Part shown: piece by piece, positions 1,076 to 5,036 of the stretch
Numbering within the stretch: the first letter of the stretch is position 1
How the letters are laid out: every line of letters begins with the position of its first letter
Assembly (NCBI GenBank): GCA_001464755.1
Contig: LNDR01000411.1
Coordinates: 1-64,000, forward strand
Source of the DNA: Rhizobiales bacterium Ga0077524
GTDB taxonomy: Bacteria > Pseudomonadota > Alphaproteobacteria > Rhizobiales > Hyphomicrobiaceae
DNA length: 64,000 bases
Direction: 5' to 3'
Notes under the pieces: model-generated
The model's database searches: none
Told to the model about the DNA's origin: nothing
Seen by the model: only the letters and a program-made list of their open reading frames with translations
Position numbers and translations under genes: made by a program

Positions 1076-2347
1076 GTGCAAGACCCATTCGTGCTGGGCT
1101 GGGAGGAGTGGCTGGCCTTGCCGGACCTCGGGCTGCCCGCCATCAAGGCAAAGATCGACACGGGAGCCCGCACGTCTGCCATTGCCGCAAGCGCGGTGGA
1201 GGAGATCGGCACGCCCGAGCTCCCACGGGTTCGCTTCGTCGTTCGCCCCATTCCTGGCCGGGACGACGTCGAGGTGACGTGCCTTGCCGATGTCATCGAC
1301 CAGCGCGAGGTTACGAGCTCAAACGGCGAAACCGAGCGGCGCTACGTGATCCGCACCCTGGCGCGCATGGGCGAACGCGAGTGGCCGATCGACATCACGC
1401 TCGCCAACCGCAACACCATGGCCTACCGCATGCTGCTCGGCCGCCAGGCGGTGAAGGACGACATGTTCGTCGATCCCGCCACCTCGTTCCGACAGCCGCA
1501 GCTCAATTACCGCGCTTACGGGTCGGCAGTGCGCAGCGAGCCGGTCAAGCGGGCCCTCACCATAGCGCTTCTGTCGCGGCGGCCGGAGAATGCCTCGAAT
1601 AGGCGCCTCGTGCGCCTCGCCGAGCAGCGTGGCCATGCCATGCCGATCATCGACCGCCGACGGCTCTCGCTCTACATAGCGGCGGCAGAGCCGGCGATCC
1701 TGGTCAACGGGCTGCCGCTCGAGCCGATCGACGCCGTGATCTTTCGCGCCGGCAAATCGCCGAGCCACTTCTCGCTCGCTATCGTGCGCCAGATGGAGAT
1801 CCTCGGCACGCTGGCCCTGAATCAGGCAGATGCGCTGGCGAAAGCCGGCGATGCGATCGTTTTGCGCCAACTGCTCGCGGGCGCCGGAATCGCGGTACCG
1901 GAGGTGGCGGTCAACCCTAAGGATATGTCGAGAGCGGCCGGCGGCGTCGAGCATGTCCTGGCCGATAGCCTCGGCGCCCTCGGCGCGGGACCGGTTCTAC
2001 GCTTCGCGGTGGTCGGCGGGCGGGCGCTCGGCGCCATCGAGCGGGCCGCCGTCACGGCGCTCGACCAGAGCCCGGAGTGGCAAACAACCGAATACACGAG
2101 CAGCCAGCTTGCCGCCGGCCGCAAGCTCGCCGAGAAGGCAGCACGCACCGTCGGGCTCGGCCTTGCAGCGGTCGACGTCACGCTCTCGCGCGCGGGTCCG
2201 CTGGTCATCGACATGACGGCCAACGTCTCGCTCTCCCAGTTCGAGCGGCTGACTGGTGTCTCGCTGGCGGAAGCCGTAATCGTGCACATCGAGCGGACGG
2301 TCGAGGCAAGGGCGCTGCTTAAAGCGCGCGCGGCCGAGGAACGCTGA
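1076..2347 (+). CDS. Fusion of RimB-like retropepsin ('ATP-dependent zinc protease', PF05618-type) with a RimK-like ATP-grasp domain
   Basis: N-terminal KIDTGARTSAIAA aspartyl protease motif and YRMLLGRQAV; C-terminal similarity to RimK. GTG at 1076 preceded by aaggag; ORF is open from 941. Confidence 0.8.
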   Translation: MQDPFVLGWEEWLALPDLGLPAIKAKIDTGARTSAIAASAVEEIGTPELPRVRFVVRPIPGRDDVEVTCLADVIDQREVTSSNGETERRYVIRTLARMGEREWPIDITLANRNTMAYRMLLGRQAVKDDMFVDPATSFRQPQLNYRAYGSAVRSEPVKRALTIALLSRRPENASNRRLVRLAEQRGHAMPIIDRRRLSLYIAAAEPAILVNGLPLEPIDAVIFRAGKSPSHFSLAIVRQMEILGTLALNQADALAKAGDAIVLRQLLAGAGIAVPEVAVNPKDMSRAAGGVEHVLADSLGALGAGPVLRFAVVGGRALGAIERAAVTALDQSPEWQTTEYTSSQLAAGRKLAEKAARTVGLGLAAVDVTLSRAGPLVIDMTANVSLSQFERLTGVSLAEAVIVHIERTVEARALLKARAAEER

Positions 2348-2613
2348 TCGCCTCGTCCGAAAGATCGAACTGGCAACCGCGGCAAACGCGTCTTCCCCTG
2401 CAAGCCACCGCCGCTGGATGCCCGGATCTGCGGGTGCGACCCAAAGCAGGGCGCCAGCTCGCAGGCATGAGCTGGAAGGCCCAGCGCAACCAGTAACGAC
2501 TGCATCGTCACATACGCATTTATCGCATGCGCAGAACGGATCTGCGAGATTTCGAAATGGCCGCGGAAATTCAAAAGTGGGATTTTACCCGACCATTCTA
2601 GCGCGCATAGATA

Positions 2614-2832
2614 TCAGGCAGGGATCCCATTGCGCCGACGAGCCAGCCAGGCGTCCCGCTCGCGCGCGAGATCTATAGAACGATTAGGCTCGGCACTGGG
2701 TTTATCGGGTTGTTGCCGTGTGGCCATGGCCTCTTGTTGCTCGCGGATTGCCTTGCGAATGGCGATGTGAAGTGTGGCGTGAAGGTCTTGCAGTTCGAGG
2801 AGGCTGAGTTCGCTGAGCTGCTTATCGTTCAT
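2614..2832 (-). CDS. Small hypothetical protein (MNDKQLSELSLLELQDLHATLHIAIRKAIREQ...)
   Basis: Short ORF with helical N-terminus loosely reminiscent of alphaproteobacterial H-NS-like N-termini; lies in a lower-GC region with no other confident gene. Confidence 0.35.
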   Translation of the reverse strand: MNDKQLSELSLLELQDLHATLHIAIRKAIREQQEAMATRQQPDKPSAEPNRSIDLARERDAWLARRRNGIPA

Positions 2833-3461
2833 GCTGGGCTGACCTGTTGAGTCCGAAGAGTCTCGCCTGTCGAGTCGCAAAGAAAATGTAGCACGGCTTT
2901 GTAACGGGATGGGAGCGCTGTGGCGAAGTTGTGGAGATCGTCAGGGATAAGACTTGACATAAGGTTGATCACTTTGTTGTCGATAAATTCGGCGACGATA
3001 GCAGGTGCGCATGTCAACTTGTCAGAGGCGCCATCGTCTGCGGGTGAACAGTGACAAGCGATGTTCCTGCAAGACGGATGAGCTACCAGTTCCCGATCGT
3101 CACGACATCGTGATCCAAAGCTGCCGTACAGATGAACAGCTCCCTGAGCTATCGGGGCGCCCCTCTTCAGTAGAATTGCGTTAGTAGGTATACTAATCGC
3201 AAATTCAGGCGTTTTCTTTACAAGCAGAGAAAGAAATTTGCAAGAAGTAGCGCCTTCTCCGGACTGGGTCTTGCTGCCATAACTTGGCACGCGAATTGCT
3301 TTTTTTGGTTGTTCGGCTGGCTGTTGGAACCGGCATCAATGCCAAAGGCCATGGTCAAGGGCCAAGGTGATTAACGATCTCGTGCGCCGCTTCTCTCGCT
3401 GACGCTCGCGCGTTGGTATCATCCGCGGCGATGTTTTGCAGGACATTCCAAGTAAGGTGAG

Positions 3462-5036
3462 ATGACGTTGTCGAGCATCTTAAAAGCTGACTCCATGAGT
3501 GTCGTCGGTTCAGCCCCTCTCCCCGGGGATATCTCGAGCGTGACCGAGACGCCCGACGTCACGCCGACACCAGACACACTGCGGTTGGTGCAGGATCATG
3601 CCGGGCCCGTCATCGTCGACTTTGACGAGACGCTCTATCTGAGGAACAGCACAGAGGACTTCATCGACGCTGCGGCTCCCGGTCTTTTGGGGCGCCTTGT
3701 GTTTGCCGTGCTCGAGGTGTTACGGCCATGGTGTTTGCTTGGCGGCGTCAAGACACGGGATGCTTGGCGTATCCGCGTCGCATCCATGTTTCCCTTCGCA
3801 GCTAGCCGCTGGCACGAACGCGCACAGCAACTCGGCGCAGCAGAGATCAATCAACCGATCCGCCAGTTGCTCGAGAGCCGAAGGGACGCCGTTATCGCGA
3901 CTCTAGGCTTCGAGCCGGTGGTCAAGCCGTTGCTCAAAGCCATGGGCCTCGGCGAGCATCGTCTCGTCGCCTGCAAGATGGGGAGCTTCCGGGATCGCAA
4001 CGCAGGGAAGCTGGCCCTCGTAAGCACCGCGATTGGCGAGGATGCGGTGCAACGCTCCGCAGTCCTGACCGATTCGGTCGACGACCAGGACATCCTTGAT
4101 TCATGCGCGCGCCCATTATTGGTCAAGTGGCCCGCAGCGCGTTTCGTTCCGGCACAGCGCGGGACGTACCTGCCCCTGGAGTACACACATCGCATCAAGC
4201 GGCCGGGATTGGGCTTCGTACAGCGCGCGATCCTAGGTGACGACTACATGGTTTGGGTGATCGCATCGATCGTCATCGCGGCGGCGCCGCTATCGCATGC
4301 CATCGGCCTTTTACTCCTGATCTTGTCTTTCTGGACCATCTACGAGCTTGGCTACGTTGACAACGACCGCATGGGCGAGCGCTACGAGGCCAATCCCACT
4401 CTGACGGCGGAATATCATCGCGAACCGGTCGCAACGTCGTTTTCACAGGCATGGATATGGGCACTGGGACTCGGCGCTGCCGGAGTTGCGGTGCTCGAGC
4501 GCGAACTCACGCCTTGGCTCACTGGTTTCGCGGCATGGACGGCGGCGCTGGTCGGCACTTATGCCGTCTACCTGCTTTACAACAGGGTCGATAAGAGTTC
4601 TCGCATCTGGCTTTACGGCCTTCTTCAGCTGGCACGCGCCGGCTCACTTCTGGTCGTTGTGCCGGTCACCAGCTTCGGTGCGATCGCGTTGGCGGCACAC
4701 GCCCTTTCACGCTGGTTCCTCTACTTCCTCTATCGCGTCACCAAACGCGACTGGCCGCTCGAGGTGCCGGCCAACGTGGTCAGGCTGTTCACGTTCGTTC
4801 TTCTCGCTGCCCCGCTGGCCCTCGGGGTGACGCCACCGGTCGACCAGGCCGCGGTGCTCACTGCAGTGATCGTACTTGTATGGTTCACCCTGCGCGCCGG
4901 GCCCCGCCTGATCCAGCTTTTCAGGAATGCCCACCTCATTACCTCAATCAAATCCGATGGGCAGGCATTGACGCGTTGCACCACAGTTGCCTCAACCAAA
5001 ACCGATCAGCACGCGACGCGTTCGGCCCACCACTGA
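3462..5036 (+). CDS. HAD-like domain fused to a polytopic membrane domain (UbiA-like architecture suspected)
   Basis: N-terminal VIVDFDETLYLRNSTEDF (HAD DxDxT); C-terminal half has many hydrophobic helices and an acidic YELGYVDNDRMGERYE loop. Confidence 0.65.
   Translation: MTLSSILKADSMSVVGSAPLPGDISSVTETPDVTPTPDTLRLVQDHAGPVIVDFDETLYLRNSTEDFIDAAAPGLLGRLVFAVLEVLRPWCLLGGVKTRDAWRIRVASMFPFAASRWHERAQQLGAAEINQPIRQLLESRRDAVIATLGFEPVVKPLLKAMGLGEHRLVACKMGSFRDRNAGKLALVSTAIGEDAVQRSAVLTDSVDDQDILDSCARPLLVKWPAARFVPAQRGTYLPLEYTHRIKRPGLGFVQRAILGDDYMVWVIASIVIAAAPLSHAIGLLLLILSFWTIYELGYVDNDRMGERYEANPTLTAEYHREPVATSFSQAWIWALGLGAAGVAVLERELTPWLTGFAAWTAALVGTYAVYLLYNRVDKSSRIWLYGLLQLARAGSLLVVVPVTSFGAIALAAHALSRWFLYFLYRVTKRDWPLEVPANVVRLFTFVLLAAPLALGVTPPVDQAAVLTAVIVLVWFTLRAGPRLIQLFRNAHLITSIKSDGQALTRCTTVASTKTDQHATRSAHH

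Follow-up and report, generated by a model that had tools for sequence, protein, structure and literature searches.

The locus

The window, i.e. the whole stretch of 64,000 nucleotides analysed here, carries at positions 1076-2347 of its forward strand a gene for a 423-aa hybrid protein, assigned from the ORF translation and Pfam domains, in which a RimB domain is joined to a putative pseudo-RimK half. The gene has a GTG start, 11 nt downstream of an AAGGAG (1059-1064, +) read from the sequence as a likely ribosome-binding site, and its homologs share the same architecture and end points. Four parts follow each other on the same strand: the retropepsin-like domain of RimB (residues 6-141, 1091-1498), with its DTGA catalytic motif (residues 28-31, 1157-1168); a well preserved RimK pre-ATP-grasp domain (residues 161-254, 1556-1837); a shrunken linker (residues 276-308, 1901-1999) in place of the ATP-grasp lid; and a remnant of the ATP-grasp C-lobe (residues 308-404, 1997-2287), inside which VIDMTANVSLSQ (2204-2239) replaces the E260/N262 metal site. 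In Pfam, Zn_protease (PF05618) was matched at 99.3 bits against a curated cut-off of 27 (E 2e-28) and Rimk_N over its full profile at 80.3 bits (E 1e-22). The RimK ATP-grasp match (E 9e-6) was limited to profile positions 90-187 of 188, so that the first half of the profile is missing.

Upstream, on the reverse strand (93-818), lies a divergent glycosyltransferase-2 gene identified with Pfam, a conserved positional marker which is outside the system. Antisense ORFs covering the hybrid gene were set aside as ordinary in GC-rich DNA. Downstream, a segment of about 1.1 kb (2350-3460) contains no clear gene, and the G+C content of its mid-part is about 0.51-0.54 versus about 0.65 upstream. It is followed at 3462-5036 by the gene of a 524-aa protein, conserved in genome G003, with an N-terminal HAD phosphatase domain and a membrane-like C-terminal half.

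The RimB half

The initial annotation had pointed out the DTGA motif of the N-terminal half; it is invariant in 37 aligned homologs, D28, T29 and G30 included. In Pseudomonas fluorescens RimB the equivalent catalytic aspartate, D31, is essential (PMC11957791). The N-terminal half of the predicted structure matches 2pma with a TM score of 0.86 (by target length). The domain scores below the cut-off of the NCBIfam RimB equivalog NF052261 (114.2 versus 200 bits), as does that of an intact hybrid (111.2 bits). It is the sole RimB found in the window's genome and, judging by its motif, is probably an active polyglutamate protease.

The RimK half: lesion and predicted structure

In the alignment with Escherichia coli RimK, the 74 residues P115-R189 correspond to only 34 residues, P275-R309, of the hybrid. 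The deletion of the nucleotide-binding segment, initially put at about 30 residues, is thus real but larger, with a net loss of 40; the linker stands where K141, EGTQG and VQEY are found in E. coli RimK. K141 (E. coli numbering throughout) is deleted, and the replacements are K100->A, E178->S, F210->D, N213->P, E260->D (D379 of the hybrid) and N262->T (T381); D248 is kept. The change first suspected at the metal site is borne out, since VIDMTANVSLSQ stands in place of VMEVNASPG. In Pseudomonas RimK, ADP is contacted by K141, E178, I180, F210, S212 and N213 (PMC10092738). All the RimK ligase residues for ATP and metal (K100, K141, E178, E260 and N262) are deleted or replaced in the window protein, which also falls short of the RimK cut-offs (NF007764, 107.8 versus 331 bits; TIGR00768, 69.6 versus 143.4 bits).

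An AlphaFold model of the window protein was built with 37 sequences (pLDDT 82.5, pTM 0.72). Residues 277-306 showed no strands and were of low confidence (pLDDT 53-69 in the linker). As a control, an intact Hyphomonas hybrid modelled with the same 37 sequences gave four strands (275-279, 296-302, 308-312 and 331-336; pLDDT 81-88), and helices too, in the corresponding region. The ATP-grasp lid subdomain is therefore missing from both alignment and model of the window protein and present in the control. As the C-terminal half of the model matches RimK 7qyr with a TM score of 0.72 (by target length), this half is predicted to be a RimK minus its lid. Neither approach, both proposed in the initial annotation, revealed an intact ATP site. 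Because the ATP and metal sites are gone, the RimK half would be, by sequence, a pseudo-ligase, and the original proposal is supported as regards a protease that keeps its catalytic motif, fused to a ligase pseudoenzyme.

Occurrence of the lesion

A survey of fusion homologs, also suggested at the outset, found the same RimK lesion throughout 24 genomes belonging to the family of the window (probably the Hyphomicrobiaceae). K141, K100 and N262 were lost in 24/24 of these degenerate homologs and E260 in 23/24. Each of these four residues survives in at most one of the 24, against 69-70 of 70 aligned hybrids from named genomes. The degenerate ORFs contain no internal stops, and an apparent split of the gene in G016 was merely a 23-N assembly gap. 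An assembly or sequencing error in the window has a negligible chance of being the explanation, in spite of the fragmented state of the genome (415 contigs, 88% complete), since the lesion recurs in the 24 genomes, including congeners whose proteins are 89% and 73% identical. Hardly more credible is a ligase half still active via some unusual mechanism: D248 and much of the fold are retained, but K141, K100, E260, N262 and the EGTQG loop have disappeared from all homologs or almost all of them, and the model has no lid strands.

Intact hybrids are frequent among Rhodobacterales, Hyphomonadaceae and Caulobacterales-type bacteria. In the window's family a single member, G026, has an intact hybrid, and it has no separate RimK. 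G192 (L069, G192:C1), from another family, has a partly degenerate hybrid that was eroded independently (K141->R, E260->D, N262->V); a stand-alone RimK is present there too. In intact hybrids of the window's order (L067, L076-L079 and L081) the EGTQG of the ATP-binding loop is modified, e.g. to QSTQGKG, KSTQGKG or ASTQGRG; from these sequences, their activity may differ from that of RimK.

Selection on the degenerate half

Between the window gene and its G003 homolog (89% identical), the NG86 omega was 0.06 for RimB, 0.04 for the pre-ATP-grasp domain and 0.09 for the ATP-grasp remnant, at dS values of 0.8-1.0. The maximum-likelihood values for the genus were 0.040, 0.029 and 0.029, respectively; the stand-alone RimK was at 0.015 (three closest genomes). 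Fixing omega at 1 (kappa 2) cost the dead half 98-148 log-likelihood units in the window's genus and 50-151 units in three other genera; varying kappa did not rescue omega = 1 in the single case tried. The remnant is less constrained in other genera (omega 0.08-0.19). The omega values are rough because dS is near saturation in most pairs, but their direction is not in doubt: the dead half is under purifying selection, and in the window's genus its constraint equals that of the protease (omega of about 0.03-0.04 in every part).

A separate RimK in the same genomes

The window's genome also contains a stand-alone RimK which passes the NCBIfam RimK equivalog cut-off (387.8 versus 331 bits). Its gene, L092 (G000:C339:2515-3420), comes directly after two oligopeptide-type ABC permease genes, and no rimB neighbour was present in the part of the contig read. 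The methylofuran polyglutamate ligases MyfA and MyfB (PMC8141765) were considered because methylotrophs carry RimK-like ligases; they were set aside, the stand-alone protein being above the RimK equivalog cut-off.

A separate canonical RimK was found in 25 of 26 genomes with a degenerate hybrid (the exception, G060, is 87% complete), versus two of the 21 intact-hybrid genomes of the order (G175 and G266; a further genome has a separate copy that is broken), with the catalytic residues of 15 of these 21 intact hybrids judged by length and overall similarity only. Fisher's test, which ignores shared ancestry, gave P ~1e-9. In the family, an intact RimK accompanies the RimB orthologue in 61/62 genomes and is present in 3/41 of those without RimB (counts tallied by hand from tables; Fisher's P 2e-23, shared ancestry again ignored). 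The co-occurrence counts are not phylogenetically independent, only two degenerations being clearly so. Since a stand-alone RimK is usual with degenerate hybrids and rare with intact ones, ligation appears to have passed to the stand-alone enzyme. G288 (C56:5446-6349) shows the reverse case, an intact hybrid alongside a stand-alone RimK that a frame change with a TAG has split.

Ribosomal protein S6, as encoded in the window's genus by L221 (G000:C240), L222, L223 and L200, was examined as a substrate through its tail sequence. The S6 tails are long and Gly/Arg/Asp-rich; those of the window's genus end in ...ERT or ...EKT, and no pattern relating tail to gene architecture was seen. Without a terminal glutamate, S6 was rejected as the obvious substrate, which argues for another target of the system: judging from these tails, glutamylation in this genus is probably directed at something other than S6, even though a canonical RimK is present.

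History of the hybrid

In the RimB-domain tree the intact hybrids, the degenerate hybrids and the RimB-alone proteins of the family form one clade (SH-aLRT 99), which lies apart from the operonic RimB+RimK pairs. The 24 RimB-alone rows correspond to four changes on the best RimB tree, the well-supported branches forcing only one. In the RimK-part tree, the family's stand-alone RimKs group within the operonic lineage, beside the operonic RimKs of the family itself; owing to long branches, the precise position of the degenerate halves is unreliable there. Synteny provides a further marker. The glycosyltransferase-2 gene adjoins the degenerate hybrid in nine of the scanned loci (the window and eight others) and also flanks the intact hybrid of G110, from another family; because they share this neighbour, the degenerate hybrids and the G110 intact hybrid are positional orthologues.

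The fusion gene and the operon present a clear case of reciprocal loss. In the likely course of events, an ancestor would have possessed an operonic rimB-rimK pair in addition to a hybrid; the operon would have kept its ligase and lost its protease, and the hybrid would have kept its protease and lost its ligase activity. Later, some lineages would have dropped the dead half. Several sister lineages have indeed retained RimB alone, and the search for RimK-half remnants downstream of RimB-alone genes found none that was convincing, with one borderline match (E 0.008). Having been lost outright there, the dead half is dispensable in these lineages.

Role of the degenerate half

The explanation that we favour, with moderate confidence, is that the protein is a RimBK-type hybrid composed of a working polyglutamate endopeptidase and a dead pseudo-ligase that has been retained for docking, as a non-catalytic module. 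The docking itself, to RimK or to polyglutamate, is what we infer. Glutamate would be ligated by the stand-alone RimK and the product trimmed by the RimB of the hybrid; less certainly, the pseudo-RimK half would act as a tether that keeps the protease where ligation takes place, and would do this either as a member of the RimK oligomer, via its preserved pre-ATP-grasp core, or through a hold on the polyglutamate chain. G192 offers an independent parallel. Counting against the explanation are the outright loss of the half in several sister lineages, the weaker constraint on it in other genera, the missing stand-alone RimK in G060 and its presence next to the intact hybrids of G175 and G266. We only tentatively regard the pseudo-ligase as an adaptor that would plug the retropepsin into an active RimK oligomer or onto the polyglutamate product. 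If that is true, a dead copy of the writer links it physically to the eraser.

One version of the docking explanation, possible but less likely than not, is that the pseudo-RimK half and the stand-alone RimK assemble into mixed oligomers, the protease thereby sitting inside the ligase tetramer or the activity of the ligase being regulated. In the RimK tetramer, the glutamate-binding region occupies the core (PMC10092738), and it is this core region that is best preserved in the dead half (mean retention of 0.50 versus 0.23 in the ATP-grasp part). The near-constant co-occurrence with a stand-alone RimK goes in the same direction. However, the two RimKs are of different lineages, the window's RimK half and its stand-alone counterpart being about 33% identical over the aligned part, and the damage affects the ATP-binding domain, which contributes to the published dimer contact.

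The other version, in which the pseudo-RimK half is a polyglutamate-binding exosite presenting tails to the protease, we consider rather doubtful. Seven RimK residues are reported to touch polyglutamate: S7, R8, S14, R64, S68, R189 and N262 (PMC10092738). The first six are kept in the window protein, although among the degenerate homologs as a group only R64 (24/24) and R189 (17/24) are well retained. On the other side, the seventh contact, N262, has been lost, no more than 46% retain S14, the conserved neighbours T70 and Y72 are gone, and the enrichment of contacts over other conserved positions is marginal (P ~0.04, three positions). In addition, the isolated RimB domain of a published hybrid already cleaves glutamylated RpsF in vitro as efficiently as RimB (PMC11957791). 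Retention of the pocket, being only marginal, was therefore not accepted as proof of substrate binding. The substrate-recognition module suggested in the initial annotation fits the contacts kept in the window protein but is not established by the homologs; docking to RimK fits equally well.

Finally, the RimK half could be a plain relic without function of its own, whittled down toward RimB alone after the stand-alone RimK took over. This reading, likewise improbable in our view, owes its place to the sister lineages that lost the half without a downstream trace. The RimB-alone forms arose within the hybrid clade, the most eroded half, that of G012, stands beside the RimB-alone clade (with weak support), and the omega of the remnant reaches 0.13-0.19 in two genera. 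Against it, both parts of the dead half have an omega of about 0.03 in the window's genus, like the protease, the degenerate ORFs have remained free of internal stops, and omega = 1 is strongly rejected.

The only RimBK hybrid assayed so far cut polyglutamate without RpsF glutamylation, which puts the role of the RimK half in question. With a half that is plainly dead by sequence yet conserved, in genomes that have an intact RimK of their own, ligase activity can be told apart from any docking role and this question becomes testable, the RimB-alone descendants being natural deletion controls.

Comparison with known systems

RimBK hybrids have been published and are reported mainly in Flavobacteriales and Rhodobacterales; the text mentions no degenerate ones (PMC11957791). 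The window protein belongs with them, as it combines an N-terminal RimB and a RimK in one chain and its RimB falls in the hybrid clade (SH-aLRT 99). The hybrids examined from other orders have an intact ligase site in the RimK half and the window protein does not; such a site is not required by the published definition. Three points lie beyond the initial annotation: the fusion type is published, a canonical stand-alone RimK is present in the genome and the dead half has been lost in sister genera. The opposition between RimB and RimK evoked there is an incomplete description, since RimB stimulates polyglutamate synthesis by RimK in P. fluorescens (PMC11957791).

In P. aeruginosa, the RloA retropepsins (PMC12239564) are of the same protease superfamily; RloA is described as secreted, and the match with the window protein is far weaker (48 bits or less). 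With RimK, the S6 glutamate ligase (E. coli; P. aeruginosa 7qyr), the window protein shares the pre-ATP-grasp domain and the topology of the C-lobe (TM 0.72), but its RimK half has no lid, no ATP site and no metal site, and is below the RimK cut-offs. With Pseudomonas RimB, a retropepsin-like aspartic endopeptidase, it has in common the retropepsin fold, the DTG motif and a RimK partner; there, however, RimB is a separate operonic gene, and the window RimB domain is under the NCBIfam cut-off. The closest comparison is with DP2392, the RimBK of Desulfotalea psychrophila (Little et al. 2025, PMC11957791), in which the same N-terminal RimB is fused to RimK. DP2392 cuts polyglutamylated RpsF, its RimB domain alone being sufficient, and glutamylation of RpsF was not observed (PMC11957791). 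The window hybrid differs from it in being devoid of the ATP-grasp lid and catalytic residues, and in having a canonical stand-alone RimK in the same genome. In the open-licence papers searched, no description of a degenerate RimK half in a hybrid was found. To conclude, RimB-RimK hybrids as such were already known (PMC11957791), and what is new is their conserved pseudo-ligase form.
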